Virus record (IMG/VR): IMGVR_UViG_3300017989_000003
Span: 1 to 64,000 of that record
From: a virus
DNA length: 64,000 nt
Direction: 5' to 3' (one strand)
Shown one piece after another: positions 6,410 to 57,146 of this stretch. The notes below the pieces were generated by a model that did no database searches, was not told the DNA's origin, and saw only the letters and a program-made list of their open reading frames with translations. Both the position numbers and the translations under genes were made by a program. How positions within the stretch are numbered: the first letter of the stretch is position 1; the number at the start of each line of letters is the position of its first letter.

Positions 6410-6462
6410 AAATAACATGCGTTATTCAGTGGCTTCTTAATAATGAATTATAGGAGGTGATA

Positions 6463-8586
6463 ATGCCTAAGATAGACCCAGGCGTATACACCGAGACTCG
6501 AGATGAGTCTGAGTACGCTAATCTTGGTGGTGCTACTATTTTCGGTGTAGTAGGTACTGCCACAAAAGGTGAGATAAATAAACCTATCCTATGTTACGGG
6601 GAGCAAGACCTAGTTAACAAAGTGGGTTTACCTCTTACTTCTCTTCCAGATTATGCTGTTCAGTCAGCCATACAGTTTTTGCAGAGGGGTCAGATTGTTG
6701 CGTTTCTAAGGGTTGAGAGCGGTCTGACACCAGCTGTAGAGTCATCTGTGACAATAAATGACTATCCTTCTGATTCTTCTCCCACTGTTGACTTCGAGGC
6801 TATCTCTCCTGGAACATGGGGTGATGACCTAAAAGTTCAGATATTGCTTGAAGAAGATGATGAGTATAGTGAGGTTCTTGGTCAAGGAGATGGTATTACT
6901 ACTAATTTCCAATCTATTCCTGTTGCTAATATTAGCTCATTGACTAATTTCCCGGTTCTTCCAGGCACAGTTCAGATAAATGCTATTGTTGGTAGTAACG
7001 TAGTGGTATTTACTGACGACGGTCTTGGTAATTTAGCGGGTCCAGCTGTTGGTGATATAGGTACTGTTGATTATGAGACCGGTGACCTTGTGGTAGTTTT
7101 TGGTGGTAGTGGTGCACCTGATAACCTCACTGACATTACGGCTACATATCGTTCAGTACAGTACAACGAGACGTTTACTGCTACAGGTGGTGCTACAGTC
7201 CAATGGGACGAAACTCTTGCTGGAAATCCTGTCTTATCGTATGAAAATACCAACTTAATACAGCCTAACACTGTTTACGTGATGGGGAGTGATGGTGCTG
7301 GTGGTATGACTACGATAGGTGTCGACAATGGCGCTGGAGCGATAACTGGAACTAACATTGCTGCTGGAACCATTGATTACGTCACAGGAGCTATTTCAAT
7401 AACACTATTTCCAGCAGCTGCGTCACAACTTGTTGTATGCTACAGAGACCCGTATTTTGATGTGGCAATTCAAGCACTAGCTGATAGGTACGGCGCTGTT
7501 GCTGAAGTTGAAAAGTTTGAAGATGTCGTTATGGACTCTAATTCCGAAAGGTATATAGAGGACGTAATAAACGACGGTATTTCTGGAGAGATAGCTAAGT
7601 CAGCTTATGTGACAGCTACTGTTCCGTTAGTACCATCTGGGTATCAACCTATGTCTGGATTGTATGATTTAGCGGGTGGTGGCGATGGCACAGCTGGTAT
7701 CGCTGATGCGGATTACATTGGCACGTATGCTGGTGGTTCTGCAAGTGGACTTCAGGTTATGGCTAATCCTGAATCTGTAGTTATCGACTTATTGGCAGTT
7801 CCTGGAGTGTCGAGCGGCTCGGTTGTAAATGCAGGATTAGCTGTGTGTGCTGACAGAAAAGACGCTATGTTTATAGTAGACCCACCGTTTGGTTTAACTA
7901 CTACTGACGTTGCGAATTGGCACAATGGTATTGGGTATTCCCATGCTGCGTTTAACAATGAATACGGTATATTGGATTGGGCGTGGATAAAACGTTATGA
8001 TGCGTATAACCGTATGGATGTATGGCTTCCACCTTCGGGTTTTGCCGCTGCACAGATGGCGTACACTGATGAAGTTTCTTACCCATGGAATGCTCCAGCT
8101 GGTAGAAACAGAGGTGTGTTACGTGACGCTCAGGAAGTGGAATACTCTCCTACAAGAGCAGAGCGTATTATTCTGTATGGGCATCCAAACGCGATTAATT
8201 CGATTGTGGATTTCCAGAACACTGGAATTGTCATTTGGGGACAAAAAACACTTTATAGACGTAATACTGCGCGAAACCGCGTGAATGTTATGCGTATGAT
8301 GTGTTACATCCAAAGAAGTGTGGTCTCATCGTGTGAATATTTGACTTTCGAACAGAATGACGCTTTTCTGTGGGCTAGATTTAAGGCGCTTGTTGACCCT
8401 ATATTCTCTAGTATCAAATCGTCTGGTGGTTTAGAAGATTACACAATTATTTGTGATGAGTCTACTAATCCTCCTGCGGTTAGAGACCAGCTTGAAATGC
8501 ACGCAAGGGTCATACTTGTGCCGTTAAAGACTGCTGAGAAGATAGTCATTGAGTTTGTTCTTGAAGGTGCCGGCGCATCAGTTTAA
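6463..8586 (+). CDS. Contractile tail sheath protein with two inserted beta domains
   Basis: 707 residues; ATG 6463 follows a near-perfect Shine-Dalgarno AGGAGGTGA (6452-6460). The N-terminus PKIDPGVYTETRDES and GGATIFGVVGTATKGEINKP are classic sheath motifs. The C-terminal half shows the conserved sheath core (WAWIKRYDAYNRMDVWLPPS, then GRNRGVLRDAQEVEY, NSIVDFQNTGIVIWGQKTL and YIQRSV). Between them, residues about 140-330 hold two copies of a domain with a DDGxG...GTxDYxTG signature that also fills the baseplate proteins downstream. It polymerises around the tube and contracts on infection. Five tube paralogues follow. Confidence 0.95.
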   Translation: MPKIDPGVYTETRDESEYANLGGATIFGVVGTATKGEINKPILCYGEQDLVNKVGLPLTSLPDYAVQSAIQFLQRGQIVAFLRVESGLTPAVESSVTINDYPSDSSPTVDFEAISPGTWGDDLKVQILLEEDDEYSEVLGQGDGITTNFQSIPVANISSLTNFPVLPGTVQINAIVGSNVVVFTDDGLGNLAGPAVGDIGTVDYETGDLVVVFGGSGAPDNLTDITATYRSVQYNETFTATGGATVQWDETLAGNPVLSYENTNLIQPNTVYVMGSDGAGGMTTIGVDNGAGAITGTNIAAGTIDYVTGAISITLFPAAASQLVVCYRDPYFDVAIQALADRYGAVAEVEKFEDVVMDSNSERYIEDVINDGISGEIAKSAYVTATVPLVPSGYQPMSGLYDLAGGGDGTAGIADADYIGTYAGGSASGLQVMANPESVVIDLLAVPGVSSGSVVNAGLAVCADRKDAMFIVDPPFGLTTTDVANWHNGIGYSHAAFNNEYGILDWAWIKRYDAYNRMDVWLPPSGFAAAQMAYTDEVSYPWNAPAGRNRGVLRDAQEVEYSPTRAERIILYGHPNAINSIVDFQNTGIVIWGQKTLYRRNTARNRVNVMRMMCYIQRSVVSSCEYLTFEQNDAFLWARFKALVDPIFSSIKSSGGLEDYTIICDESTNPPAVRDQLEMHARVILVPLKTAEKIVIEFVLEGAGASV

Positions 8587-23331: not shown

Positions 23332-26300
23332 ATGACGTTACCTACTACACTTGATTACACGGCTCGAGATTTTGACTCAATAAAAATCTCGTTGGAAAAT
23401 TATGTTAGAGCCACAGAACCCACACTGTGGACTGATTTCTTTGAAAGTAATTTGGGTGTTTTACTCATAGATTTTAATGCGTATGTGGGCGATATTGTGT
23501 CATTTGTTGCTGATAGAATATCAGAGGAAGTGTTTCCTGTTACAGCCAAAAGGCGTAATAGTCTCATAAAATACGCGAGAGGCGTGGCGTATTCACCGCA
23601 AGGTTCGTCTCCGTCGACTGTTCGCGTAGTTGCGAATAATGACTCTATACCATCTACTTTTAGTACACAGGGTCTGTTGTTTTATGCAGGTACTGTTTTT
23701 ACGGTAGATGAGGTTACGTTTGAGTTAATTAAGGACTACTATTTTCCTGCACTCACTAATCCAGTTGAGATGGATTTTACGTCGGGTCTGTCTGACGCTG
23801 AAACTTTTATTGCTGATGGTAGACAATGGCAAGAATATACTGTTGAAGTTGACGACGTGATAAATGATTCATGGAAAGTATTTGTGGATGGAATCGAGTG
23901 GGATTTCGTGGATAATTTGCTTTTTTATGAAGCTGAGCGTGTTTACGAAGTAGTGTATGAAGACGACGGTAGTATTACCGTTAGGTTTGGTAATGGCGTT
24001 CATGGTCTTATTCCTGCTTCTGGTTTATCTGTTGAAATACGATATAGGTATGGTGGCGGAATAAGTGGTAATATTGAATCTAGGTCAGTTAACACGACTA
24101 TTACTGGATATTTCGATGACGGCAGTTCCGCTTCTATTAGCATAAATAACCCGAATCGTGCTTCAGGCGGCGAAGACCCTGAAACTATTGAACACATTAA
24201 ACAATGGTTGCCCGGTTGGATTAAATCTAACAATAGGGCTGTGTCTGTTGAAGACTATATGACATTAGTTAATAAATTTACAGACCCTGATTATGGTTCT
24301 CCATATCGTGCTAATGCTCGGTTACGTATTAGTGGTTTCGGTAACATAATCGGTGGTATATACCTAGAATCTGCATTGATGCCGTATGTGGAGTCATCTT
24401 CGTTTGAGATATTTGCTGTTGGTGATGGCTCCACTACTAATTTTACTTACAATACATTACAAAAACCTATAGTCCCGTATACTGTTAGAATTACGGGTTA
24501 TTTGACCTTTGGTTTTCCGCCAACTACTGTTGCGTTTGAGGTGAGGGATGATGGGCGTGGTGGACTTGAGAGTGATTATATTATAGGAGGCTCAGTGGAC
24601 TACGATAACGGTATTATACAAGTTAGTTTTCGAACTGGTAATGCCCCTGTAGCTTCTGCTGGGATTTCCTTATATTACGAATTTTCTCCAGTGTCAATAA
24701 CAGGTGTTAACAGGTACGACTATTCCCATTTGCTAGGAATAGGTGATGGAATAGTTACGGCGTTTAGTGACACTATTATAATACCAACTAGTTTATTAGT
24801 ACCGAATGAAGATGCTTATTTGTTTTCGTCTATTAACGATTTTGGGATAAGGTTGAAAACTGTGTTGGACAATGCAGGTACTGACATTCCGATTGACCTT
24901 TTTGACGGCTCTTTAACCGTTCCAGTAACTCAACCTGTTGGTACATTTACGGACTTAACTGGTGCCCCAGACCCAAATGTGATATCTAGTACGATAAATT
25001 ATGAATCTGGGTTTATATCAATAACATTCGCGCATCCTGTAAAACTAGATGAGGGAATTAAAATATACTTCACAGCGTTTAATTTTAATTGGGATGAAGG
25101 CGATGGTATTAGCGTGGCATTTTCAGGTTATGTCGGTGAGGACATAGTTCCAGGAACGTTGCGAGTGCATCTAGTTGTAGGTACAACTGATATATTTATC
25201 CGTGATAATCTAGTGGCTGGTGTGTGGTCTCTAATAGTGATAAATGCGGCTACTGGGGTGTCTGTTGTTACATCTGATATAGATTATGATGCAGGATATT
25301 TGTCATTCACACTGTCCCATCCACCGGATAATCTTACGCTAGTTTCGTTAGCGTATAGAACTGCCGCCGAGGTTACTGACTTGCCTTACGGAGTTATGAA
25401 CTTTGTGACTGCTATAGATAGTACTACGGGAGGTCTTGATAACGCTGGTGTTTACCAGTGGTTATCTGATAGGTGGAATTTACTTGTAAAACAGGGTGAA
25501 TTTGATTACGCTCTTCCTGCTAACGTTGTTGACCTGTGGCTATGGTCACAGGATACCGATGGGTATTTAGCGTTTGCGTCTGAAGGTCTTATAGATGCGG
25601 TGAGGGATTGGTTACTTGATTATGAGATTTCGACTGTGCAATTGAATGTAGAGTCAGGATTACTACAGCCGTTTAATATAGACATAGGAACTGTGTATTA
25701 CGATAAACAGTATGAGGTTAATGACATTCGGATTGACATACAAGAAGCTATTCGGCAATTGTTAACGTCAGACGCCGTGTATCCTGGTGAGGAAATTACA
25801 GTATCTGAATTATATAGTGCTATTTATGACGTTGAGGGTGTGTTGGGGTTCAAAATGTTGTCTCCAACATCTAATATATCGCTATCGAAGAATGAGATGG
25901 CTTCTTTTGGTAAAGTTGAACGTTATGACACTGGGGTTAAGGGTCTTCCGTCAGAGCAAACTATTGGTTATGGTGACCCTAGTATCCCAACTTTAGTGTT
26001 TTCATCAACTTTGTCAGGGGTTGGAGCATCTAATAATGTCATTGAAACCGCTAATTCTGTTATTGTCGAGACGTATGTTGTAACTCCTACTGGTATAGAA
26101 TTCAGTCAGGCAAAAAGTATAGTAGGGGCTGTTCCTGGTGTTATGGAGTTTGTAAATACTGTTGGTAATTACGTTGATACCTTAGCTGCTAATTCGTATG
26201 TTAATGTATCCACTGGAGCTATTCAGGTAACATATAATGGTGGAAATCCTCCAGATACTGATGTGGCAGTGGTGGTAACATATTGGACTGAGCATTTTGT

Positions 26301-26610
26301 CGTAATAAGTCAACTTATGTACTATCCTGTAACGGGTGGTACTGTAAGATTAGAATTTGGAGATTTGCTTATTGTAGATGACGGTGCGGGTAATCTTGTG
26401 TCAAATCAAGTTTCGGGTTCGATAGATTATGATACTGGTGCCCTAAAATTTGATTTTAATAATGACACATTATCTATACCACCACCTATTGACGGTGAGT
26501 CTCTTTTAGCTACGTATAATTATACATATAAGGCTAATTTTGTGCCTTTGGTGAAAGGAAGTGTGACTGACAAGATGGGTTATTGTCCTGATTGGGACTG
26601 TCCAGATTAA
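23332..26610 (+). CDS. gp6/J-like baseplate wedge protein with repeated beta domains
   Basis: 1092 residues; ATG 23332. The N-terminus (LDYTARDFDSIKISLENYV, then ESNLGVLLIDFNAYVGDIVS, ISEEVFPVTAKRRNSLIKYA) and GNGVHGLIPASG with GGEDPETIEHIKQWLPGW identify the baseplate J/gp6 family. From about residue 364 to 690 three copies of the DDGxG...DYxTG domain interrupt the usual order; the rest of the J core (VNVESG-type strand, DIRIDIQEAIRQLL, ISELYSAIYDVEGV-like) follows. Two more copies close the C-terminus. The result is much longer than typical gp6. The role is wedge ring formation around the hub. Confidence 0.85.
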   Translation: MTLPTTLDYTARDFDSIKISLENYVRATEPTLWTDFFESNLGVLLIDFNAYVGDIVSFVADRISEEVFPVTAKRRNSLIKYARGVAYSPQGSSPSTVRVVANNDSIPSTFSTQGLLFYAGTVFTVDEVTFELIKDYYFPALTNPVEMDFTSGLSDAETFIADGRQWQEYTVEVDDVINDSWKVFVDGIEWDFVDNLLFYEAERVYEVVYEDDGSITVRFGNGVHGLIPASGLSVEIRYRYGGGISGNIESRSVNTTITGYFDDGSSASISINNPNRASGGEDPETIEHIKQWLPGWIKSNNRAVSVEDYMTLVNKFTDPDYGSPYRANARLRISGFGNIIGGIYLESALMPYVESSSFEIFAVGDGSTTNFTYNTLQKPIVPYTVRITGYLTFGFPPTTVAFEVRDDGRGGLESDYIIGGSVDYDNGIIQVSFRTGNAPVASAGISLYYEFSPVSITGVNRYDYSHLLGIGDGIVTAFSDTIIIPTSLLVPNEDAYLFSSINDFGIRLKTVLDNAGTDIPIDLFDGSLTVPVTQPVGTFTDLTGAPDPNVISSTINYESGFISITFAHPVKLDEGIKIYFTAFNFNWDEGDGISVAFSGYVGEDIVPGTLRVHLVVGTTDIFIRDNLVAGVWSLIVINAATGVSVVTSDIDYDAGYLSFTLSHPPDNLTLVSLAYRTAAEVTDLPYGVMNFVTAIDSTTGGLDNAGVYQWLSDRWNLLVKQGEFDYALPANVVDLWLWSQDTDGYLAFASEGLIDAVRDWLLDYEISTVQLNVESGLLQPFNIDIGTVYYDKQYEVNDIRIDIQEAIRQLLTSDAVYPGEEITVSELYSAIYDVEGVLGFKMLSPTSNISLSKNEMASFGKVERYDTGVKGLPSEQTIGYGDPSIPTLVFSSTLSGVGASNNVIETANSVIVETYVVTPTGIEFSQAKSIVGAVPGVMEFVNTVGNYVDTLAANSYVNVSTGAIQVTYNGGNPPDTDVAVVVTYWTEHFVVISQLMYYPVTGGTVRLEFGDLLIVDDGAGNLVSNQVSGSIDYDTGALKFDFNNDTLSIPPPIDGESLLATYNYTYKANFVPLVKGSVTDKMGYCPDWDCPD

Positions 26611-26686: not shown

Positions 26687-29600
26687 ATGTTAAAGATAGA
26701 AGTTACAACGCCAAACGTAGTAAATAACGTAGTTTTCGGAGAAAATGTTGAGTTATCGTACTTATTATACGATGCCTCATACAGTCTTTGTGATTTGTCT
26801 GTAGAGTATAGCATTAATTCAGGTCTTACGTGGAATGCTTGTACGCCAAATTTACTAAATCCTTTGCATGAGAATCCAGCCAATTTAACCTCGTCTCCGT
26901 CAGGTGTTAAACATTTTTTCGTATGGGAGTCTCCGACTGATATACCTAGTACCGGCTCTGTTAGGATTAGAATTCAAGCTACTAATTTACCTAGTAATCA
27001 GGCTATAACTGACTTATTCCAAGTTGATAATATACACGCTATTGTGTTGGTTGCAACACCCGATAAATTACAGACAGGTAGTTTTACTATTGGCTATACT
27101 GTATATAACTATTCTGGAGATGACGCTGATATTGTTTGTTATTACTCAAAAGACGGAGGCTATAACTGGTGGGAAGCTAAGGAAGATGTGAGTATTGGCG
27201 ATGGAGTTGAAAATTTAAGTACGTCTGTAGATGGTGATACCCATTTATTTGGGTGGGATAGTGCTGAGGATATTCCTGTTGGGTCTGTATATGTTAAAAT
27301 TGAGCCCTCTAATTCGAGTACATCCGAGATTGGGTATTCTGGCTCATCTGAAGAATTTTTTGTAAATAATACGACTTCTTGGCTTGAGAAGAAAGTACCA
27401 TTTACATTATTTGCTCTTGACCCTGATGATGTACTTAAATTCTACATTAATATATTGGACTTTGAACGGGCGCATAACACTGAGATAACCACCTCACTAA
27501 TAGAGCTTTTGGACCCACTAAAATGCCCTGAACAGTATTTGAATGTATTAGGGGATACTCTGGGGGTGAGACTAGACGGTGAAGCTCCAACTGATATAAA
27601 ACGTAGGCAGATAGCGTCTGCGGTATTATGGTACAAAGAAAAAGGTACTTTATCAGCGTTCGAAGCATTTTTCATGACATTGGGTTATAAAATAGATGTG
27701 TACGAAGTAACTACGGATGGTAAAGATTGTGATACTGATTTTGTAAGTAGTAATTGGTATAAGACGGCTAGACTTAGACTAACGTTTCTAAAGTATGATG
27801 ATGACGCATGGATAGAGCCATGGGAAACAGAAGAATTGATGTCGCTTCTTGAGGAAGTTAGACCAATTCATGACCTTATAACAACATATAACTGGGGATT
27901 TGATTTTAGCGAAGTACTCTTGTTTGATGATGATAACGAAAAAGACGTGCTTGTAGATAGATTGAGTTACATAGCAGACGAGTGGATTAACCCACCTTTG
28001 GAGATAGAGCTATTTGATGCATGGTTTGGGGATGGTATTCTGGCTACGTTCGCTGGTATAATACCATTACCAGCTGGTGTACAAATTTTACCTGAGTCAC
28101 TCCAAGTGTTTGCCACTGGTGTTGGTAATCAGCCAATGATTGGTACTGATGACGGTCTTGGTATAATTGATGGGGCGTATATAATAAACGGAACTATTGA
28201 CTACGTCACTGGGTCGATTTTTGTACTATTTGGCGTTGCTCCAGATATTGGGGCTGAGGTTACTATAAAATATTCGTTGGATTCGTCTTATTACAGTTAT
28301 CCGATTGATGCCCCCCATCATTACTACACTAGAGATGGAAATTCGTTACTTGTTCGCGATAGGGCGTGGTTAACGCAAGTAGCTCCGTTTGACGTGACTG
28401 TTGGGGTTATTGATAGCGTAGGAACGCTTTTACCTGCTACTGCTAGTAGAATGGGGGTATTGATTGATATATTTCAAACTAGCTCTAATCGTAAAGTAGC
28501 CACTGTCTGTGAATATGATAACGGTAATTTACGTAATGTCGAGAATGTCATCCATAATGACATAAACGATTATTTACTATTAGCGAATACTGTTGGTGGT
28601 GTCCCTGTTTATGGCGGAAACTTAAATAACAATGTTATCCCAAGTTCTGTAATCATGTCTATAGATGAGTTATGGGCGTATGATGACGGAAATGGGGTCT
28701 TATCTGGCTCTGGTAACATAAGTGGTGTACCTACAGATTTAACTGGTACTATTACGTATGATACAGGAGCTATTTCTGTTACGCTTAATCCTGCCCCTGG
28801 TGTTGCCGGCATTCCAATAAATATAAATTACAAAACTTACGAATATTTTGTTACAGGTACTGGTGGAGCTATGCCTGCGGTGTTGTACACCACAGATTTC
28901 ACAAATATAGAGCCAGGAACGGTGAGAATATTTTCTCGGGACGGAGAGTTGGCTTCAGATGATACGGTAGGCAACATAACAGGCAGTGGAATCACGGGTA
29001 CAATAAACTACGCTACTGGTGCGATGAATCTTAGTTTTGCTTCATCCGTGCTAAATTGGAATTATGGAGTCCAATACCGTATTTATCCATTACGTGTTGA
29101 TGAGGGTTTATCGAGACTTAACCGGGGTATGCAGAGTGTTATAGCTACAGGAGATGGTGTTTCAACTATATTTCGTTCTACGCTTGACCCTAATGGAGTT
29201 CCAGTCTCGCTAGGGAGTTTATTATCTCCAATACCTATACTTCCAGGTTCATTTTATGTTAAATCAGCTCTAAATTCTGGAAGGAGTGATACTACACAGC
29301 CTTTTGGTAACGTAGTTGGTAGTATAACTGGGACAATCGAGTGGTCGTCAGGATTCTATGAGTTAGTATTTGCAGTAGCCCCAGCTGACGGTGAGGAAAT
29401 AGTAGCGGGATGGGAGAGTAACTACCTTAATTTGGTGTTTGAGCAACCATTCGACCAAAGTTTGTACAATGTACAAGTACGTAATTCGTGGAATACTATT
29501 GATAGTAATTATGACCAGGCTAATAGTCATCATTACACTCGCGATAGCTATAATTATTCATACTCGAAGCCGTTTATAGGGCGTGAGGGTCACGCTCATA

Positions 29601-30010
29601 ATATAGGAATTGGGGATGGTTTTACTCCTTTGTTTACCGGAACATTACCGAATACACCTGTTTTGCCGAATTCTGTGACTGTATTAGTTTGGTGTGAGAA
29701 CAAACAAATGTTACCTCATCAGTCACTTATTCCAGTACAAGTTTTAGCCTATGATGATGGCGCGAATAATATTATTGGAATGGACGATGACCTAGCGCCT
29801 GTATGGGGTACAATAAACTATTTGACGGGTGCTATCACTGTTAATTTTAGTTTTGGTAATATGTGCGTACCAATTTCTGGAGCTAATGTCGTGGTACATT
29901 ACTCGACACAGGTTGACGGAGCACTTCAGGAAATAGGGTGGAATCACTGGAAGAAAAAAGGAAGTAGATTATCCATTTTACGTAATTCAGTTTTATTCTA
30001 TAATGGGTAG
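26687..30010 (+). CDS. gpI/gp7-like baseplate protein with Ig-like and repeated beta domains
   Basis: 1107 residues; ATG 26687. Residues 1-230 contain two Ig-like modules (VEYSINSGLTWNACTP; IVCYYSKDGGYNWWEA). Residues about 235-420 match P2 tail protein I: EITTSLIELLDPLKCPEQYL, NVLGDTLGVRLDG, DIKRRQIASAVLWYKEKGT and SAFEAFFMTLGYKIDVYEV. From about 445 to the end are five copies of the DDGxG...DYxTG domain. P2-type gpI links wedges to fibres, so the C-terminal domain array may form an extended arm; this is inferred. There is no visible enzymatic motif. Confidence 0.8.
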   Translation: MLKIEVTTPNVVNNVVFGENVELSYLLYDASYSLCDLSVEYSINSGLTWNACTPNLLNPLHENPANLTSSPSGVKHFFVWESPTDIPSTGSVRIRIQATNLPSNQAITDLFQVDNIHAIVLVATPDKLQTGSFTIGYTVYNYSGDDADIVCYYSKDGGYNWWEAKEDVSIGDGVENLSTSVDGDTHLFGWDSAEDIPVGSVYVKIEPSNSSTSEIGYSGSSEEFFVNNTTSWLEKKVPFTLFALDPDDVLKFYINILDFERAHNTEITTSLIELLDPLKCPEQYLNVLGDTLGVRLDGEAPTDIKRRQIASAVLWYKEKGTLSAFEAFFMTLGYKIDVYEVTTDGKDCDTDFVSSNWYKTARLRLTFLKYDDDAWIEPWETEELMSLLEEVRPIHDLITTYNWGFDFSEVLLFDDDNEKDVLVDRLSYIADEWINPPLEIELFDAWFGDGILATFAGIIPLPAGVQILPESLQVFATGVGNQPMIGTDDGLGIIDGAYIINGTIDYVTGSIFVLFGVAPDIGAEVTIKYSLDSSYYSYPIDAPHHYYTRDGNSLLVRDRAWLTQVAPFDVTVGVIDSVGTLLPATASRMGVLIDIFQTSSNRKVATVCEYDNGNLRNVENVIHNDINDYLLLANTVGGVPVYGGNLNNNVIPSSVIMSIDELWAYDDGNGVLSGSGNISGVPTDLTGTITYDTGAISVTLNPAPGVAGIPININYKTYEYFVTGTGGAMPAVLYTTDFTNIEPGTVRIFSRDGELASDDTVGNITGSGITGTINYATGAMNLSFASSVLNWNYGVQYRIYPLRVDEGLSRLNRGMQSVIATGDGVSTIFRSTLDPNGVPVSLGSLLSPIPILPGSFYVKSALNSGRSDTTQPFGNVVGSITGTIEWSSGFYELVFAVAPADGEEIVAGWESNYLNLVFEQPFDQSLYNVQVRNSWNTIDSNYDQANSHHYTRDSYNYSYSKPFIGREGHAHNIGIGDGFTPLFTGTLPNTPVLPNSVTVLVWCENKQMLPHQSLIPVQVLAYDDGANNIIGMDDDLAPVWGTINYLTGAITVNFSFGNMCVPISGANVVVHYSTQVDGALQEIGWNHWKKKGSRLSILRNSVLFYNG

Positions 30011-30028
30011 TATATACGGGAGATAAAA

Positions 30029-31174
30029 ATGCAAAGAGTAAACAAAGTAGTAGACTATATTCCATTCAGGGGAATTTTCGAAATTCTTAGGTACAAAGAG
30101 GATGGTAAGACGTTACTACATAAGCCATACCGTGACCCTAACACAATTGTTAATATAGGTCGACAGTTTATTCGCGGTATGCTGGCATCATCATCTACAT
30201 GGAGTAATTTTCCTACTGTAGGAACCTCCTGGGGAGATATGCAGCCATTGGCTAATAACGATTTATTCATAAGTCGTATGAAGCTGGGTATGTCTTCGAT
30301 ATCTGCGTCTCCAGTTGACGAAGAACTTATATCACCTATAGGCGATAATATAGCTAAAGAGAATCTCGCTACTGGTGATGGTGCCACAACGGTGTTTGCT
30401 CCTGCTGCACTTGTTGGCGCTCCTGTTCGGAAGACTTTAGTAATATCAACTTGGGTTAGGTTAACTGCTACAGTAAAAACGTATCTTTATGCGGTGGATG
30501 ACGGCAATGGTAATATTTTTGGCAGCAAAGATGTGTTTGTAACTGGTACTGGTTGGGTATCGACTTCTGTAACAGGAACTATTGATTACACGACCAAGCT
30601 TATAAACTTAACTTATTCCCATGCTCCATGGGCTGGTGATAATATCGATGTGACATATGAGACAGCAGTTACAGCTGTTGACGTATTTGCAGCCGGAGGT
30701 GTTTCTTATAGTAATAATTTCGGTGTTTTACCTATTGGTCATAGGTCGCTTACTATTGTGGCTTCTGGCGGTGGTGGCGGTGGTACTGTAGGATTCGCAT
30801 CTGACGTAGGGTCAGGTATTATCCAGGGAACGTTTTTAATAGGCGGTGTGACACTAGTTAATGTTACTGGAACTATAGAGTACACAACTGGTTCGTTGGT
30901 TCTTAACTTTTCTGTTCCGTTACCGCCAGGTGTTAATTTCGCATTTGGATACCGTGTTGACTGGTCTCATTCTGTATCGACTTACTTTCCTAGTCCATAT
31001 ACCGTAAGGTTTGAAGTCACATTAGGGGCTGCGGACTTTGCTGGCTATAGATTTGCGGAAGAAGGTATTTTTACGGATTCTACGCTAGACTTAATGCTAG
31101 CTAGAAAAGCTTTTACGCCCTTTGAAAAGGGTGTTGGTGAGATAACTGTGTTTAGACATTCTATTCTGTTTTAA
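30029..31174 (+). CDS. Tail/baseplate-associated protein with two copies of the repeated beta domain
   Basis: 381 residues; ATG 30029 after GGGAGAT. The N-terminal 110 residues (VNKVVDYIPFRGIFEILRYK, NTIVNIGRQFIRGMLAS) are unlike known families. Two repeated domains follow, with VDDGNGNIFG...GTIDYTT near 155-200 and SGIIQG...GTIEYTTGSLVLNF near 265-295. The last 70 residues (TVRFEVTLGAADFAGYRFAE, then FEKGVGEITVFRHSILF) resemble phage tail or fibre-attachment ends. Placement between gpI-like and fibre genes suggests an adaptor for the fibre. Confidence 0.55.
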   Translation: MQRVNKVVDYIPFRGIFEILRYKEDGKTLLHKPYRDPNTIVNIGRQFIRGMLASSSTWSNFPTVGTSWGDMQPLANNDLFISRMKLGMSSISASPVDEELISPIGDNIAKENLATGDGATTVFAPAALVGAPVRKTLVISTWVRLTATVKTYLYAVDDGNGNIFGSKDVFVTGTGWVSTSVTGTIDYTTKLINLTYSHAPWAGDNIDVTYETAVTAVDVFAAGGVSYSNNFGVLPIGHRSLTIVASGGGGGGTVGFASDVGSGIIQGTFLIGGVTLVNVTGTIEYTTGSLVLNFSVPLPPGVNFAFGYRVDWSHSVSTYFPSPYTVRFEVTLGAADFAGYRFAEEGIFTDSTLDLMLARKAFTPFEKGVGEITVFRHSILF

Positions 31175-38987: not shown

Positions 38988-39444
38988 AAAATGTTTTGGA
39001 AAGTTCAAATATCCTAAGTGTTTAACGCAGCCGTGTAGGCATGAGTGTGTTGATAAGTTTAACTCTGGTCGTAAAATCAAATTTGCCCTAAAACGTCAGA
39101 GTAAAAAAAGGTCTGAGACCAAAAAAATTTATAAGGGTGTGGGAAATGTCAGATTTGATGCTAAAACTGTTAGTAAATTTATTACCAAGGTGCTTAGAGG
39201 TATCCCCCTTAACAAGAATCAGGGAGTTGATGTAATAACGTGGTCTTACCGGAATAAGAGGTTAATATGGCTAAAAAAGGCAAAAAACCAAAAGGTTCAG
39301 ATAGAGTTGATAAACGAGATGAGTTGCCCCGGAGCGCGGGTCACGAAGAAGAAGAGGATTTCGATAAGCGTATCATTAGACGACGAGATAAAATTAGAGC
39401 AGCTAAAAGAAAGCATACGTCGCTGGTTTCGCAACCGCAACTAA
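38968..39444 (+). CDS. Small basic cysteine-motif protein overlapping the polymerase gene
   Basis: 158 residues if it ends at 39444; ATG 38968 has GAGGAGGTG eight bases upstream, an excellent site. The N-terminus is KCFGKFKYPKCLTQPCRHEC, four cysteines of the type CFG-x-C-x-C-x-C seen in small phage and plasmid proteins with an unknown metal or iron-sulfur role. The rest is very basic. The last 178 nt overlap the start of the polymerase gene in another frame, unusually long for this genome, so either the C-terminal half is a genuine overlap or the stop was lost. Function unknown. Confidence 0.55.
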   Translation: MGESFVKKCFGKFKYPKCLTQPCRHECVDKFNSGRKIKFALKRQSKKRSETKKIYKGVGNVRFDAKTVSKFITKVLRGIPLNKNQGVDVITWSYRNKRLIWLKKAKNQKVQIELINEMSCPGARVTKKKRISISVSLDDEIKLEQLKESIRRWFRNRN

Positions 39445-42296
39445 ACTTACACTATCCTGCGGAATTAAAAGATAGCAAGGATGCTAAGATTAAGCGTTGG
39501 TTTAACGCCGGTTGTTTGCATTGTTACATGTATCCATGCACTGGTTCCCCTATTATGGATAAATTTAAGGGCAAAGCTAGTAAGCAGCAAGAGGATTATT
39601 ACGTAAATACCTATAAGGTTTCTGGACGTGGAAATACCGACCCTGCTATACTGTTTGTTGGCGAAGCGCCTGGTTACATGGAAGATAAGCTCGGCAAAGT
39701 TTTTGTTGGGGAATCTGGTAAAATATTACAAGATGCTATTCGGGATTCTGGTATAACTAAGTCATCTAAATGTAGTTGGTATATAGATAATGTTGTGTGT
39801 TGTAGACCAAATGAGAATAAGACACCCTCATTTACTGAAATGATACCGTGTTCAGCATTTTTAGCGGATAAGATTAAAGAGCTAAATCCATCTGTGATTG
39901 TGCCTCTTGGCGGGTCCCCGCTTAAGATACTACTGAATGATAAAGACGCTAGAATAGGAACTTATGTCGGTAATATTCGGGATATAGAGCTTAGTATGGG
40001 TACGTTTAAGATGTTTCCTATGTGGCATCCTGCTTATATACTCCGTAATATGAATGTTTACGGAGATTACGTATTCTACTTGAAGCGTCTAAAAGACTTC
40101 TTGACTGGCGATGCGTCTGTGGATGAATCTTTTGATATTGTTATTTCGAAAACTGAAAAGAGCGTGGTTAAGGCTGAGAAAGTAATTCAGAAAATGCTTA
40201 TTGGTACAAAGAAAACTGCATTTGATATTGAGACAGCTTCCGTAGCTGATGTTGAGAATGACGCTCTTAACCCATTTTCTTCGACGTCTAGAATTGTATC
40301 TATTGCATTTACATATGGAAGTGATAAAGCTGTTACTTTATATACTTACCACCCTGATATTAAAGACTCGGTACTTAATAAGAATCGCAAACTAGCGGAA
40401 CTCATTCTTAAGTCTAATATTAGGAAAATAGCCCATAATGCTAAATTTGACGTGTTGTTTATTCTTGAGAAGTGGGGGTTTGAGGTTAATAATCTTGTAG
40501 AGGATACATTGCTGACTCATTACAGTCTTGTAACTGAACAGCAGGGTACTCATGGGTTAAAGGCGTTAGCTACTCGATATGCGGGTTTAAGTGACTATTC
40601 TGACTACGTACGCGATGAGGATATATTTAAGCGGAATCTTGTGTTCTCTATGTCAAAGAAGAAATTTGGGGAGTATAACGCTATGGATGTCATAGCCACT
40701 GACCGTATTAGTAAATCTTTTCGGGAGAAATCCAAAGATTTTATGGTATCTGTTAGTAACCCTGTGGCGTACAAGTTGATGCCAAAAGCTACAATTGCGC
40801 TCACACGTATGGAACATAATGGTATGTTTATTGATATTGACATTGCCCGCGTAATTAAGAATATTTTTAAGAGAACGCGCAAAATATATAAGTCTAAGAT
40901 AAGTAGTCACCACGTCATTAGAAGATACAAAAAATTGTTACCAAAACTACGTGAAAAAGGTGTAGTTGGAAAAACGGTTAAGAAGTTTACGATACGTTCT
41001 CATCCCCAGCTTAGGGTTATACTTTTTGACAAAAAGTTTTTAGGTTTGCCTGTGATTGCCCTCACAAAAAAGGCGAAGCTACCATCGACAAACAATAACG
41101 TTATGACAACTTTATCCGCTAGGCATGACTGTGACTTATGTGGGTTAATACTGAATTATAGAGGAGTTGATAAGACTTATGGGACATACCTTAAGCCCTT
41201 TTACAAGATGGCTCGGGCAAATAATGGTTATATCCATGGAAGGTTTATGCTTTCAACTACTGTTACAGGTAGGTTGAGCAGTGTATCTCCAAATCTCCAA
41301 AATATTCCTAACAAAAGTGCAGGACATGTTAAACGACTTGTAGTGTCTAGATATGGGGATGATGGTCTTATTCTTAGTATTGACTACTCTCAGTTGGAAC
41401 TACGTGTTCTTGCAGCGCTGAGTGGCGATGAGAAAATGATGTCTGCTTACAAAGAGGGCAAGGATTTGCACAGGCTAACCATGTTGTCAATATATGGAAT
41501 ATCTGAGGAAGAGTATAATTCGTATGATAAGGATAAACAGGTTCTAATGAGAACTGTGGCTAAGAGAGTCAATTTTGGGGTTATATACGGTATTACCGCT
41601 GGTGGTATAGTAAACATATTAGAAGGTGAGGGCATTGTTATCGAGGAAGACGAAGCTGAGCTTTATATTGGTAGATTTTTTGAAGCGTATCCTGGCGTCG
41701 AGGAATTTATCCAGAATGTTAAGGGCAAAATGTATGAGGATGGAGTGGCTGTATCAGCGTTTGGTCGTGTTAGGCGTTTTGCTGAGGCTCTTCTCGCGTC
41801 GTATTTAAGAAAAATAGCAGGCTATGATTCTCCGCATCTATATGGAACTTTAAGTAAGTCTGAACGCCAGGCGGCGAATCATGTTATACAATCTACTGCT
41901 AGTGATTTAACATTATGTAGCCTGATAGCTTTTGACGATTGGTTAATTAAGCAGGATGTTGAGAAGGCTAAAACATTCGCTGTTATACATGATGCTATTG
42001 ACGTGGATGTGAAACGGGAGTACGCTGTTGAAGTTATACAGAAACTTATTCATATCATGGAGCATGTACCTGAGTACTCTAATCTTATATTTACTAAGAA
42101 ATTGGGTATTAATTGGGATTTTTTTAACCAAGTTCCCATTAAGGCTGATGCTGATATTGGGGTTAATTGGAGGGATATGGTGTCTTTAGAAGGTGAAATT
42201 ACGGACATAAATATCAGCAAATTACTTAATAAGTCGCTAGAGCGCCAAAACGAAGTTGACGCAGATTTGTTGGAGGGTAATTATTATGAAGGATAA
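39267..42296 (+). CDS. Uracil-DNA glycosylase/family A DNA polymerase fusion
   Basis: 1009 residues; ATG 39267 after AAGAGG. Residues 1-75 are a Lys/Arg-rich tail. Residues about 80-280 match family 4 uracil-DNA glycosylase: C83, C86, C91 and C178/C179, C195 as candidate [4Fe-4S] ligands, FVGEAPGYMED (130-140), KVFVGESGKIL, CRPNENKTP and WHPAYILRN (253-261). Residues 315-490 are a 3'-5' exonuclease (AFDIET; AHNAKFD; YNAMD). From about 500 is the polymerase: LQNIP, motif A SIDYSQLELR (about 705), motif B RTVAKRVNFGVIYG (about 765), motif C IHDAIDVD (about 906). There is no 5'-3' nuclease; a separate flap nuclease lies at 46.9 kb. Confidence 0.9.
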   Translation: MAKKGKKPKGSDRVDKRDELPRSAGHEEEEDFDKRIIRRRDKIRAAKRKHTSLVSQPQLNLHYPAELKDSKDAKIKRWFNAGCLHCYMYPCTGSPIMDKFKGKASKQQEDYYVNTYKVSGRGNTDPAILFVGEAPGYMEDKLGKVFVGESGKILQDAIRDSGITKSSKCSWYIDNVVCCRPNENKTPSFTEMIPCSAFLADKIKELNPSVIVPLGGSPLKILLNDKDARIGTYVGNIRDIELSMGTFKMFPMWHPAYILRNMNVYGDYVFYLKRLKDFLTGDASVDESFDIVISKTEKSVVKAEKVIQKMLIGTKKTAFDIETASVADVENDALNPFSSTSRIVSIAFTYGSDKAVTLYTYHPDIKDSVLNKNRKLAELILKSNIRKIAHNAKFDVLFILEKWGFEVNNLVEDTLLTHYSLVTEQQGTHGLKALATRYAGLSDYSDYVRDEDIFKRNLVFSMSKKKFGEYNAMDVIATDRISKSFREKSKDFMVSVSNPVAYKLMPKATIALTRMEHNGMFIDIDIARVIKNIFKRTRKIYKSKISSHHVIRRYKKLLPKLREKGVVGKTVKKFTIRSHPQLRVILFDKKFLGLPVIALTKKAKLPSTNNNVMTTLSARHDCDLCGLILNYRGVDKTYGTYLKPFYKMARANNGYIHGRFMLSTTVTGRLSSVSPNLQNIPNKSAGHVKRLVVSRYGDDGLILSIDYSQLELRVLAALSGDEKMMSAYKEGKDLHRLTMLSIYGISEEEYNSYDKDKQVLMRTVAKRVNFGVIYGITAGGIVNILEGEGIVIEEDEAELYIGRFFEAYPGVEEFIQNVKGKMYEDGVAVSAFGRVRRFAEALLASYLRKIAGYDSPHLYGTLSKSERQAANHVIQSTASDLTLCSLIAFDDWLIKQDVEKAKTFAVIHDAIDVDVKREYAVEVIQKLIHIMEHVPEYSNLIFTKKLGINWDFFNQVPIKADADIGVNWRDMVSLEGEITDINISKLLNKSLERQNEVDADLLEGNYYEG

Positions 42297-50997: not shown

Positions 50998-51417
50998 GTG
51001 CGAATAGTCTACGATAAAGAAGCGGTCAGGTCTTGGGGAAATCGTCATGAGCCGGGAAATACTCCAGATGATTTAGAGAGAAAAGTCATAGAAAAATTAA
51101 CTCTTATCGGAAAGTGGATGCTCGCCGATAAAGTTATATTCCACGATTACGATAAGGGACAAGCCTACTATATTATTAAAGGCGACAAAATGCTTGTATT
51201 GTCGGCACTTTCGACGCCGATTGATGGAGGGTGGATTAACTTTGACGAAAAGGCTATTCCCGATAAATTCAAAGACCCCGCGTTTTGCCCGGATAGTATG
51301 AAATACGTTGAAATCAACGGGGTTTATTTCAGAGAAATAGACGCAAAAACGGGGTTACCCACAGGTGAATTTTATCACGAAAAATTAGAAGAAGGAGGAA
51401 ATAATGCAACTAGTTAA
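50998..51417 (+). CDS. Small alpha/beta protein of unknown function (GTG start)
   Basis: 139 residues. GTG 50998 is chosen because GGAGG lies 6 nt upstream; the in-frame GTG at 50986 lies inside that site. No family is recognised: it starts MRIVYDKEAVRSWGNRHEPG and ends in a Gly/Lys/Glu-rich tail (DAKTGLPTGEFYHEKLEEGG). It overlaps the ThyX gene by 14 nt, implying co-translation. Confidence 0.5.
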   Translation: MRIVYDKEAVRSWGNRHEPGNTPDDLERKVIEKLTLIGKWMLADKVIFHDYDKGQAYYIIKGDKMLVLSALSTPIDGGWINFDEKAIPDKFKDPAFCPDSMKYVEINGVYFREIDAKTGLPTGEFYHEKLEEGGNNATS

Positions 51418-53023
51418 TCCAAAAGTAATCGTGTATAAAATGCACGAATTTGACGTAATCAAAAAACTCATTGAAATCAACGCTCGACGTTGTTGGCGCT
51501 CAGAGGATAGAATCGGCGAAGGTTCTGCCGACAAAATCATCAAGTTTCTTCGAGACAAAGGGCATCACGCAATGCTCGAATTCGGTGTTATTGCCGTTGA
51601 AATCACTTGCGACCGCGGAATTAGTCATGAAATTGTGCGTCACAGACTAGCGTCTTACGCGCAACAGTCTACAAGGTACTGTGATGAGGGTAGCGAGAAA
51701 AAATTCGGTGGAGTTAATTTTATCGAGCCATTTTTCTTTGACGAATATGACGATGCTTCTGACGACGATAGAAAAGATATACAATTGCCGCATCCAATAC
51801 CTGTTACATGTATTTCGGTTGGTAGTAAAGCACCAAAAATAACTCCTTGGCATTTTGTAAATGCAGATAAAGGAAGTAAACATTCAATGACCGCGTGGGA
51901 CGTGTGGTTCATATCCTGTTTATGGTCTGAGTGGGCTTACAATACACTTCGAAATGAATTTGGAGCAAAACCTCAAGAAGCGCGTGCGGTGCTTCCTAAC
52001 TGCCTAAGAACTGTAATTGGAATGCAAGCATCTATTCGTGAGTGGCGTCATGTGCTCAAGCTTCGGTGCCACAAAGATGCACACCCACAAATTAGACAAG
52101 TTATGATTCCGCTGCTTAAGTTCTTCCAAAAAGAACTGCTTGTATTATTCGAGGATATCGAATACGACGATACGTACAAAGGCGAAAAGATTCCATTACC
52201 AGAAGTCGAAGTAGTCGAGGTTTATGACGAGTTCATCTATAGTAATACGAAAGCAGCAGCATATTGCGAAATACATGACCCGCGCCCTTACGAAGAACCT
52301 TACTGTGACGACGCCGAGGAAGAGGAAGATACTGACGATGAGGATATTTCTAAGGAAGAAGTAAAATTGCATGAGAAACAAAAGTTGCGTTGTGTAGAAA
52401 TTGAATGTCCTTGGCTTGATGAAATCGGTTGCAGAAATCCAGATGGGGCAGAATGTCCAATAAGAAAGAATTTTATTATAGCAACAGTAGGTATTAAGGC
52501 GGACGAACCAACAGCAAATGGCGACATTTACCCACGTGAAGTTGTCGAGAAGATGGTTAATGACGTGAAGGATAAAACTATACTTTTGTATCCATCACAG
52601 CCTTTGGGTGTAAGTGAAGATTCACAAGAAGCTATCGGAGAAGTAGAAAAATTGGAAATTAACAATAACAATGAATTGATTATGAACTGTAAAATTCTTA
52701 AACACAAAGATGACTTTCCTATTTCAAAATTAATTGAAGATGGGCTTGTTAAAGTCGTACCTAGTGGTGTTGGTAAGTTCGAAGTTGATTCCCAAATTGT
52801 AGAGGAGTTCCAAATAACAAGCTTTGGGGTTGTCGAAACACAACCTATGAAAGAAATGGCACCAATACCCAAAGATACGGTGAAGAAGGTCATAGACTAT
52901 CTTCAAGGTATTGCAGGTTCAAGGAAGGCGAGTTTAGGCGACCATCAATCTTATGATGCTTTACTGCCTGTCAAACAAACCGACGGGTTGCTTGATGAAC
53001 TTAAACAAATATTGGAGGATTAA
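51404..53023 (+). CDS. thyX: ThyX flavin-dependent thymidylate synthase fused to an extra C-terminal domain
   Basis: 539 residues; ATG 51404 after AGAAGGAGG. Residues 1-270 match ThyX: RHRLASYAQQSTRY (79-92) is the RHRxxS...QQSTRY signature, with GHHAMLEF before it and NCLRTVIGMQASIREWRHVL with RCHKDAHPQIRQ after it. It makes dTMP from dUMP with FAD. After an acidic linker (about 300-325) and a Cys-rich stretch (CVEIECPWLDEIGCRNPDGA) comes a 170-residue domain (FIIATVGIKADEPTANGDIY, then YPSQPLGVSEDSQEAIGEVE) that resembles the core of prohead-protease/S78-type proteins, a tentative match. Confidence 0.8.
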   Translation: MQLVNPKVIVYKMHEFDVIKKLIEINARRCWRSEDRIGEGSADKIIKFLRDKGHHAMLEFGVIAVEITCDRGISHEIVRHRLASYAQQSTRYCDEGSEKKFGGVNFIEPFFFDEYDDASDDDRKDIQLPHPIPVTCISVGSKAPKITPWHFVNADKGSKHSMTAWDVWFISCLWSEWAYNTLRNEFGAKPQEARAVLPNCLRTVIGMQASIREWRHVLKLRCHKDAHPQIRQVMIPLLKFFQKELLVLFEDIEYDDTYKGEKIPLPEVEVVEVYDEFIYSNTKAAAYCEIHDPRPYEEPYCDDAEEEEDTDDEDISKEEVKLHEKQKLRCVEIECPWLDEIGCRNPDGAECPIRKNFIIATVGIKADEPTANGDIYPREVVEKMVNDVKDKTILLYPSQPLGVSEDSQEAIGEVEKLEINNNNELIMNCKILKHKDDFPISKLIEDGLVKVVPSGVGKFEVDSQIVEEFQITSFGVVETQPMKEMAPIPKDTVKKVIDYLQGIAGSRKASLGDHQSYDALLPVKQTDGLLDELKQILED

Positions 53024-53024
53024 A

Positions 53025-53582
53025 ATGGGTTTATTCAAACGAAAATACAGCAAAAAATTTCGAGAAACTATTGACGCTATTATTGATGAGGGAGACAAAA
53101 AAGACAAGCTCGAAGAAGATAACAATAGATTGCGCAGCTATGCCGCTGGGATAGAGGAAGGCGCATTAAAACTTTTTTTGGTAGATGGGATAGAATCTAA
53201 TCCTAAAAAATTGGGTGGGCGGTGGTGTCTTAAAGGAACGAGATTCCCTTTATCCAGAGTGTTAGCAGAAATTTCAGATGATAACAAACTGTCTGAAATT
53301 GCAGATGATTGTGATTTGGATTTGAAACTTCTTAAGTCAATATTTGAGGATTTAAGTGGTGCGTTGGACGAAAAACCTAACTCCGTAGCTTCTGATAATT
53401 CCAGTTCCATAGATAGCACAAAAACACAAGAAGAAATGGCACTGACGATGCTGCGTGAAGGTTACGAAAATTTCTGCATCGACTACGAAGAAAAGACAGG
53501 GCAGGCAAGACACGATTGCCCATTTACCTTTGAGGGCTACGTTGAACACCTAATCAAAACTAATTGTGGAGAAGGGGGTTAA
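53025..53582 (+). CDS. DUF433-like protein A
   Basis: 185 residues from ATG 53025 (TTGGAGGAT upstream). After a basic N-terminus and coiled segment, residues about 66-118 read KKLGGRWCLKGTRFPLSRVL followed by IADDCDLDLKLLKSIFED, the DUF433 arrangement GxPxxKGTRxPxxxVL, an HTH-like domain found in antitoxins. A nearly matching domain occurs in the gene at 56.5 kb. The rest is helical, ending CPFTFEGYVEHLIKTNCGEG. The role may be regulatory; it is not proven. Confidence 0.6.
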   Translation: MGLFKRKYSKKFRETIDAIIDEGDKKDKLEEDNNRLRSYAAGIEEGALKLFLVDGIESNPKKLGGRWCLKGTRFPLSRVLAEISDDNKLSEIADDCDLDLKLLKSIFEDLSGALDEKPNSVASDNSSSIDSTKTQEEMALTMLREGYENFCIDYEEKTGQARHDCPFTFEGYVEHLIKTNCGEGG

Positions 53583-53584
53583 TT

Positions 53585-54934
53585 ATGACAGTACGTGACA
53601 AGTTCAAATTCGGAAAAGTAGTTTATTGCCCTAATTGTGGTAAAGCCCACGATTACGTTGAAAGTTATTCATTCAGCGACGAACTAATGCTGGTTTACAA
53701 CGTAGGTGACGAAGTTCCGTCGCATAAAAATAAGAATGTCGTTGTTAAAGAAGACATGGTTTGTTGCGGTGGTAATTTTTATGTCTATGTTGTTATCGAA
53801 CACGGTATTTATGTTGGAGCTTTCGTTTGGGACGAAATGCTGTTTCAACTAAGCTACGATGAGGAAGAGTATGACACGTCAGATAGTGGTTACACCTTCG
53901 CACTTCCCGGATGCAAGTTCGATGCCGGGGTTACGTTTCGTGAGGTCGATGAATCTTTCGTCGGTATCCCTGAAGACGTCAAAGACAAACTCAATGAAGT
54001 TATTGAGAACGCCTTTGCTGATACAATTATAACTACAGCGTTAGAGGACGAACTGAAGAAGCATTTTAACGCAGTCAATATAAGAAAAGACAACAATAAT
54101 TTATACATCGACGTTCAGCCTGTAAAGTCAGCAGAATTTATAAAGACGCAGGTCGTTATAGATACCGGTTTATCGTTGGCTAATCGTATAGTATTGCCAA
54201 TAGTGAGACCAATGGGTAAATTACATAAGTTAATGACGATTACTGACGACGTAAAAATCACCGCAGATGCTATTATTCTCGAAGATAACCCTACGAAAGA
54301 AACGCTCGAACGTGCTGAAAAAGAGCACAAGATGATTATAGTTCGAGTTGACGGGGATGCCCATGCGGTCTTAGAAAAACAGGAACAATTAATGCGAGAA
54401 CTTGGGGAATCGAAACGTGTGGCGGTTTATACAACACCTTACGTCGAGGAAAAAGAAACCGAAGAAGTTGTTAATGAATTTTTATCACTTGGTGGTTTTA
54501 CAACTAATTATAGCTGGACGCTTCACAATAATAGCATTGTTCCAAAAAGTGTGTGGATTAGGTACGACGAGTGGACGAGTCCGAAAGATGATGGAAATGG
54601 TTCAATAAAGGACGGTTATAAGTTGGTCAAGATAGATTATGATACGGGTAGCTTATCGCTTCAAGTGTTTAATGACAAAGAAACACCTACACCGAATAAG
54701 CCTATTTACGTTTCTTATAGTTATACCGAAACAAAGATTCGTAAAATGACCGATGAAGAGGCTAAAGAATTTTTCGTTAGCAGGCTCAACAATGAGGGTT
54801 GGGTTGCTCCTGCTGGTAAGAAATTTAATTTATCAAATATCACTGTCGTCGATTGCGATGCAATACGCAAAGGCGACGAAATGAAATCTGAAGGTCATGA
54901 CAAAATAGATTTCGAGGAGGATGACAATGAATAG
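53585..54934 (+). CDS. Zinc-motif accessory protein carrying one copy of the tail beta domain
   Basis: 449 residues from ATG 53585 (GAAGGGGG upstream). The N-terminus has CPNCGKAHDY and later CCGGNFYVYV, a likely zinc site. The middle is a repetitive alpha/beta region (helices with EDELKKHFNAVNI, then IVLPIVRPMGKLHKLMTI). Residues about 303-382 read FTTNYSWTLHNNSIVPKSVW then DDGNGSIKD and KIDYDTGSLSLQVFN, ending PIYVSYSY: the same signature as the domains in the sheath and baseplate proteins. It overlaps the next gene by 8 nt. The combination is unexplained. Confidence 0.55.
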   Translation: MTVRDKFKFGKVVYCPNCGKAHDYVESYSFSDELMLVYNVGDEVPSHKNKNVVVKEDMVCCGGNFYVYVVIEHGIYVGAFVWDEMLFQLSYDEEEYDTSDSGYTFALPGCKFDAGVTFREVDESFVGIPEDVKDKLNEVIENAFADTIITTALEDELKKHFNAVNIRKDNNNLYIDVQPVKSAEFIKTQVVIDTGLSLANRIVLPIVRPMGKLHKLMTITDDVKITADAIILEDNPTKETLERAEKEHKMIIVRVDGDAHAVLEKQEQLMRELGESKRVAVYTTPYVEEKETEEVVNEFLSLGGFTTNYSWTLHNNSIVPKSVWIRYDEWTSPKDDGNGSIKDGYKLVKIDYDTGSLSLQVFNDKETPTPNKPIYVSYSYTETKIRKMTDEEAKEFFVSRLNNEGWVAPAGKKFNLSNITVVDCDAIRKGDEMKSEGHDKIDFEEDDNE

Positions 54935-56456: not shown

Positions 56457-57146
56457 ATGGGACAAGTGGATATTGTTGGAGAGATAGTGTCGCTTTTCGT
56501 TGGGTTAATAACGGGTATAGTTGTCTTTATTATAATTTATTTAGAAAGAAAGAAGTCTCGCGAATGGTGGCGCGAGGGTGTCGAAGATACTAAGAAAAGG
56601 GGAATAGGCATGAATAAGGATACTAAATACGTAGAGTTTACTTCTGACGTAGAGGTGTCAGCTAAGGTATTGGCTAGTTACGACGACGCCATAGAAGAAA
56701 CGTTGGAACTAGCAAAGAAAATGAATTGTGAACTAGTGCTTAAGCATAACTCGGTAAAATTAGTAATTGGGGCAAAAGACACACTTAGTGAGCTAATTGA
56801 TGCATGGTGGAACGCAGCGTATCCTACTAACGGAAATGTCGCAGAAAATACGGCAAATGTTGCTGAGAATGTGAGTGTAAGATTAAACGATGTCGTAGAC
56901 CTGACCAAGATACAGGGTATTGAGTATAGTGCTAAGAAACTTGGTGGTGTATGGTGCCTTAAAGGTACGGGATTTCCGTTATCAAGGATATTTATGGAGC
57001 TAGCTTCAGAAGAGTCTACGTTAGAAGGGATAGCTGAATATTACAATCTAGACATGTGTTTATTGAACGATATATTTCGTGCATTCGGTGAAGCTATATG
57101 TGTAGCGCACGAAGGAAGTACCGGGAAAGAAGGCGGCATTTGTTAA
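56457..57146 (+). CDS. Membrane-anchored DUF433-like protein B
   Basis: 229 residues; ATG 56457 after AGAAAGG. Residues 5-30 are a membrane helix (IVSLFVGLITGIVVFIIIYL). An internal in-frame ATG at 56610 has its own GGGGAATAGG site and could make a shorter soluble form of 178 residues. The C-terminus repeats the DUF433 pattern: KKLGGVWCLKGTGFPLSRIF then IAEYYNLDMCLLNDIF, close to that in protein A at 53.0 kb. The middle domain (DTKYVEFTSDVEVSAKVLAS) is unknown. Confidence 0.5.
   Translation: MGQVDIVGEIVSLFVGLITGIVVFIIIYLERKKSREWWREGVEDTKKRGIGMNKDTKYVEFTSDVEVSAKVLASYDDAIEETLELAKKMNCELVLKHNSVKLVIGAKDTLSELIDAWWNAAYPTNGNVAENTANVAENVSVRLNDVVDLTKIQGIEYSAKKLGGVWCLKGTGFPLSRIFMELASEESTLEGIAEYYNLDMCLLNDIFRAFGEAICVAHEGSTGKEGGIC

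Follow-up and report, generated by a model that had tools for sequence, protein, structure and literature searches.

The decoration genes hoc and soc of phage T4 stand isolated among non-structural genes. Immunoglobulin-like (Ig-like) domains of phages have been sorted into five classes, all of them in particle proteins, in a survey by Fraser et al. 2006 that is cited in PMC7602432, and the insertion domain (I-domain) of phage P1 is reported to project from the capsid and to contribute to inter-capsomer contacts (PMC12810830). This type of domain is already known, as are its fold and its promiscuity among virion proteins. The stretch of viral DNA considered here, 64,000 nucleotides long and hereafter called the window, is part of IMG/VR record IMGVR_UViG_3300017989_000003 (155,386 bases) and contains a clear member of this domain family in an uncharacterised protein encoded within a DNA-metabolism operon, referred to below as the accessory protein. 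Profile and predicted fold both place a virion-type I-domain in this protein. Also new are a sheath-like second segment that probably stands beside the domain, and the closeness of the gene to a ThyX gene with a degenerate prohead-protease-like extension.

Sequence evidence for the domain

The gene and its domain lie as follows:

53585..54934, + strand: accessory gene, 449 amino acids, its ATG behind the Shine-Dalgarno-like stretch GGAGAAGGGGG, directly after a DUF433 gene
~54458..54736, + strand: Ig-like beta-sandwich of I-domain type, residues ~292-384 (tail-only profile, AlphaFold2 model, match to P1 gp23)

A preliminary description of this DNA had reported that a peptide of the gene at 53585 matches a structural repeat of the tail genes, far from those genes. 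The quoted peptide is indeed encoded there as residues 303-382 (54491-54730) in the open reading frame starting with the ATG at 53585, the domain itself being slightly longer, from 54473 to 54727 by the profile and from about 54458 to 54736 by the structural model. A hidden Markov model (HMM) was built from 11 copies in three tail genes, with the accessory copy and the sheath gene held out, and was run on the six-frame translation of the window, covering every one of its 544 stop-to-stop frames of at least 40 amino acids. Besides the three source genes, it matched the tail sheath gene that had been held out (E 1e-21), followed by the accessory gene at E 6.9e-10 and 33.4 bits, the next frame reaching E 1.8. 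Among 20,000 shuffles of the segment, the highest score was 13.3 bits. Since the match stands far above both the shuffles and the next frame, the sequence similarity of the accessory domain to the tail copies is, by these scores, real, and the reported distance from the tail genes amounts to 23 kb.

The accessory domain is at most 33% identical to every other copy and nonetheless keeps the core motifs, which implies long maintenance under constraint. A recent duplication of one tail copy was considered and rejected, given this low identity to every copy and a tree that does not resolve. The GC content of the domain (36.6%) bears no mark of recent foreign DNA.

Fold and identity of the domain

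An AlphaFold2 model of the accessory domain, built with 14 copies from the window, is all-beta and confident, with a predicted local distance difference test score (pLDDT) of 89. Its best structural match is residues 200-305 of P1 gp23 (PDB 9ukm), the region to which the P1 I-domain corresponds, with Z 11.1 and 2.1 Å over 88 of 91 residues, as against Z 7.3 for the runner-up; the same I-domain is matched in the full-length model at Z 10.4, and a sequence profile weakly finds part of the same gp23 region on its own (E 0.0007). Among predicted viral structures, two capsid proteins are the best matches and a tail sheath comes fourth. The preliminary description had named a lack of structural similarity to the tail domains as grounds for abandoning the idea; the model gave no such grounds, its best matches being virion proteins. 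The likeness to the tail copies in particular rests on the profile together with predicted sheath and baseplate proteins of other phages. On the predicted fold, the accessory domain is of the capsid-insertion-domain type, an Ig-like beta-sandwich.

Occurrence of the domain in virion proteins

According to a profile of all copies, the genome has the domain at 16 places. The gp6-like and gpI-like genes have five each (one of those in the gp6-like gene being weak), the gene at 30029 and the sheath two each, and the major capsid and accessory genes one each. Those outside the accessory gene are:

6868..7452, + strand: two copies inserted in the tail sheath (gene 6457-8586)
24403..26529, + strand: five copies, four of them clear and one (26017-26289) weak, in the gp6-like baseplate gene 23332-26610
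28010..29908, + strand: five copies in the Tail_P2_I-like gene 26687-30010
30353..30964, + strand: two copies in the gene 30029-31174
153859-154119, outside the window: one copy, as an insertion, in the major capsid gene (L016 1021-2481; genome 153.4-154.8 kb), which, with the circle closed, lies immediately before the start of the window

Eleven of 40 related records have a domain match, one each, and the capsid protein is the carrier in all those for which it could be identified (LIS04, SP-15, GXN1, Molly and several contigs). Compared with these relatives, the lineage of this phage seems to have expanded the domain into the tail. In IMG/VR, carriers were found by means of a DNA motif, because no stretch of the domain alignments was conserved enough for a profile scan; at least 22 carriers occur among the matches listed, comprising 11 baseplate wedge proteins, three capsid proteins, one sheath and one virion structural family, the rest being unassigned. 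Carriers in cultured phages are annotated as capsid, baseplate wedge (gp6), tail fibre, minor tail or hypothetical proteins. Among the classified carriers in the related records, the cultured phages and the listed IMG/VR matches, none is a non-virion protein. The domain family extends across head, sheath and baseplate and is not tail-specific, so that the term 'tail domain' used in the preliminary description holds in that the domain is shared with the tail copies and fails as a statement of where it belongs, a domain of capsid-insertion type being found in the sheath and major capsid genes as well.

A probable second virion-type segment

Upstream of the I-domain, the accessory protein probably contains a further segment of virion type:

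53942..54160, + strand: probable segment resembling the sheath C-terminus, residues 120-192 (sheath profiles)

When the related records were searched with residues 1-302, the C-terminus of tail sheath proteins was matched in six records (best E 4e-5), and the sheath sequences of four of these six were inspected. Since these first matches were selected, the comparison was repeated with jumbo-phage sheaths chosen independently of the accessory protein. Two such unselected sheath profiles gave E 9.5e-5 and 3.1e-5; only the phage's own sheath ranked higher than the accessory protein, which outscored 20,000 shuffles. The result with a third set of sheaths, from records previously non-matching or unsearched, was E 0.041, below the best shuffles, and profiles dominated by sheaths of cultured phages gave E 0.1-0.17 for the segment. 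With a full-length profile of 28 sheath sequences (E 0.003), only about 29 residues of the accessory protein were aligned, and the whole sheath architecture of N-terminal part plus C-terminal domain was not found with this profile. Taken together, these comparisons make a sheath-C-terminus-like segment probable. In the accessory protein the sheath-like segment comes first and the I-domain second, the reverse of their order in the phage's own sheath, and the idea that the protein is a truncated sheath was rejected for this reason.

Remaining parts of the accessory protein

Two further features are recognisable:

53627..53767, + strand: CxxC...CC pattern, possible metal-binding cysteines C15, C18, C60 and C61 (from the sequence; AlphaFold2 is not confident here)
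54269..54793, + strand: small alpha/beta unit, residues 229-283 with helix 390-403 (full-length AlphaFold2 model)

The preliminary description had spoken of a zinc-motif protein. What the sequence shows is the CxxC...CC pattern; the Pfam zinc ribbons give E 0.19 and 0.98, the best at 12.3 bits against a cut-off of 29.1, and no match to Pfam or PHROG was found elsewhere in the chain. The full-length AlphaFold2 model is reasonable for residues 229-403, with pLDDT 74-94 for residues 229-400. In this model, which was made from a shallow alignment, a long beta ribbon (286-302/373-387) carries the I-domain between the alpha/beta unit and the helix, so that the I-domain appears to be inserted into the small alpha/beta unit. 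Neither the N-terminus nor the alpha/beta part yielded a family or fold match that could be interpreted, an absence from the match lists that leaves room for a relative. A resemblance to the DNA polymerase of Pseudomonas KIL phages (E 0.1) was rejected, as profiles give nothing there.

Homologues of the whole protein were found neither in 50,697 phage records nor, by peptide patterns, among bacterial and archaeal genomes; in IMG/VR only near-identical contigs were found, two of them with a 100% identical copy.

Gene neighbourhood and the ThyX fusion

The accessory gene belongs to a same-strand run of UvsX-like, ParB-like, exonuclease, nucleotide-kinase-like, ThyX and DUF433 genes, and is followed in this run by a gene weakly similar to nucleoside 2-deoxyribosyltransferases and by methylase, NT5C, SbcD-like and SbcC-like genes. 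Paralogous DUF433 genes (KLGG.WCLKGT.FPLSR) flank the accessory gene at 52953-53582 and 56457-57146. One gene separates it from the ThyX gene:

51404..53023, + strand: ThyX gene, two genes upstream of the accessory gene (Thy1 E 5e-33)
~52493-52840, + strand: degenerate prohead-protease-like C-terminal part of ThyX (protease profile)

The C-terminus of ThyX matches a profile of 37 prohead proteases at E 3.9e-5 (19.6 bits, best shuffle 11.1) and still at E 1.1e-4 when the phage's own protease is left out of the profile, and it lacks the conserved HP and SSRG motifs of these proteases. When 28 frames of the structural region were compared with 312 other frames of the genome, the lowest E value fell to the ThyX gene (9.1e-4), and the accessory gene was matched by two separate tail genes; the remaining frames gave a few single weak matches (E 0.007-0.04).

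The virus

Both ends of the 155,386-base record share 123 identical bases, which suggests that the record is a complete circular assembly. By its sheath, tube, gp6-like wedge and Tail_P2_I genes, the virus is a contractile-tailed phage. Its major capsid protein is of T4 type (phrog_138), the nearest being those of Bacillus phage SP-15 and Listeria phage LIS04 at about 32%, and its family A DNA polymerase, fused to uracil-DNA glycosylase (UDG), has its closest matches mostly in SPO1-like Bacillus phages:

39267-42296: UDG domain followed by a family A DNA polymerase with 3'-5' exonuclease, an arrangement shared with SPO1-like phages

Elsewhere in the genome, inspection by eye suggested a 1267-residue ribonucleotide reductase-like frame with an intein-like interruption (CLAPYQRVYTAKGAIPVKDL...; L029, genome 139003-142803, - strand) and a patatin-like frame (LVLAGGGPRGAYQAG; L029, genome 142803-143735, - strand). 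Within L028 (genome 124-131.4 kb), the frames at 123989, 125715, 127400 and 129752 have in common a segment of about 60 residues near the N-terminus and apparently form a paralogous family with a common leader.

Possible roles of the accessory protein

Our favoured reading, held at about even odds, is that the accessory protein is a chimera which combines virion modules and would bind to the particle or become part of it. In such a chimera, a cysteine-containing N-terminus would precede the probable sheath C-terminal segment and the I-domain. Both types of module form inter-subunit contacts in their usual virion proteins, so that docking onto the head, sheath or baseplate proteins of the same phage would be the most likely function, and the protein may be a low-copy, decoration-like virion component or an assembly factor. 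The preliminary description had left the choice between a virion component, a tail-binding protein and a domain captured for another use; the virion proteins that carry the domain elsewhere, together with the probable sheath-like segment, favour the first two. Several points weigh against such a particle role. The sheath-like segment, though probable, falls short of proof, and residues 1-126 are unreliable in the full-length model and have no family match. The survey of carriers is a sample in which several carriers have no class, and the gene itself lies in a DNA-metabolism operon, away from the structural genes.

This last point fits a captured domain, serving for example as a stable protein-binding module in a protein of DNA or nucleotide metabolism or of host takeover and having no role in the particle, an explanation that we consider possible though not favoured. 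Besides the surrounding UvsX-like, ParB-like, exonuclease, ThyX, methylase, NT5C and SbcCD-like genes, it draws support from the neighbouring ThyX enzyme, which likewise bears a degenerate morphogenesis-type domain; it accords poorly with the probable presence of a second virion-type segment and with the lack of a classified non-virion carrier elsewhere. The ThyX fusion two genes away suggests a pattern. That these two nearly adjacent genes both acquired morphogenesis modules, an I-domain and a sheath C-terminus in the accessory gene and an inactive prohead-protease fold in ThyX, which would draw the products to the particle during assembly and let metabolic or accessory proteins ride in or on the virion, is a speculative and rather unlikely extension of it.

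Alternatively, recombination between structural genes and an unrelated gene could have produced a neutral or decaying gene in which the domain is functionless. Several unrelated-looking segments in one protein, their order opposite to that in the sheath, and the near absence of relatives agree with such an origin, but the intact frame of 449 codons, the ribosome-binding-like stretch, the tight operon, the confident AlphaFold2 model and the core motifs retained under constraint make it quite improbable. A generic beta-sandwich resemblance with no common descent, for which one might point to the many Ig-like folds found further down in the structure searches, is very hard to reconcile with a profile match of E 6.9e-10 clearly separated from the next frame and with the lead of the P1 I-domain (Z 11.1 against 7.3).

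If the accessory protein is a virion or assembly protein, the position of its gene misleads annotation; if it is not on the particle, it represents a rare case of a virion-type Ig-like domain leaving the particle.

Comparison with known systems

Decoration proteins of the Hoc type resemble the accessory protein in having Ig-like domains and, in T4, in being encoded away from the main structural genes. They differ in their architecture: a string of Ig-like domains with a capsid-binding domain was not found in the accessory protein, whose 449 residues contain a single I-domain and no recognised capsid-binding domain. Residues 120-192 probably resemble the C-terminal domain of tail sheath proteins (phrog_23 type), whereas no other part of the sheath is present, and the segment and the I-domain stand in the opposite order. 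The promiscuous Ig-like domains treated in PMC7602432 offer a parallel in that a small beta-sandwich recurs across the capsid, baseplate, tail and sheath proteins of one genome, but the classes surveyed there are all on the particle, whereas the accessory gene belongs to a DNA-metabolism operon. The I-domain of P1 gp23 shares the predicted fold of the accessory domain over its whole length, with weak profile similarity and 16% identity; in P1 it is part of the major capsid protein, whereas here it is part of a protein encoded in a non-structural block.
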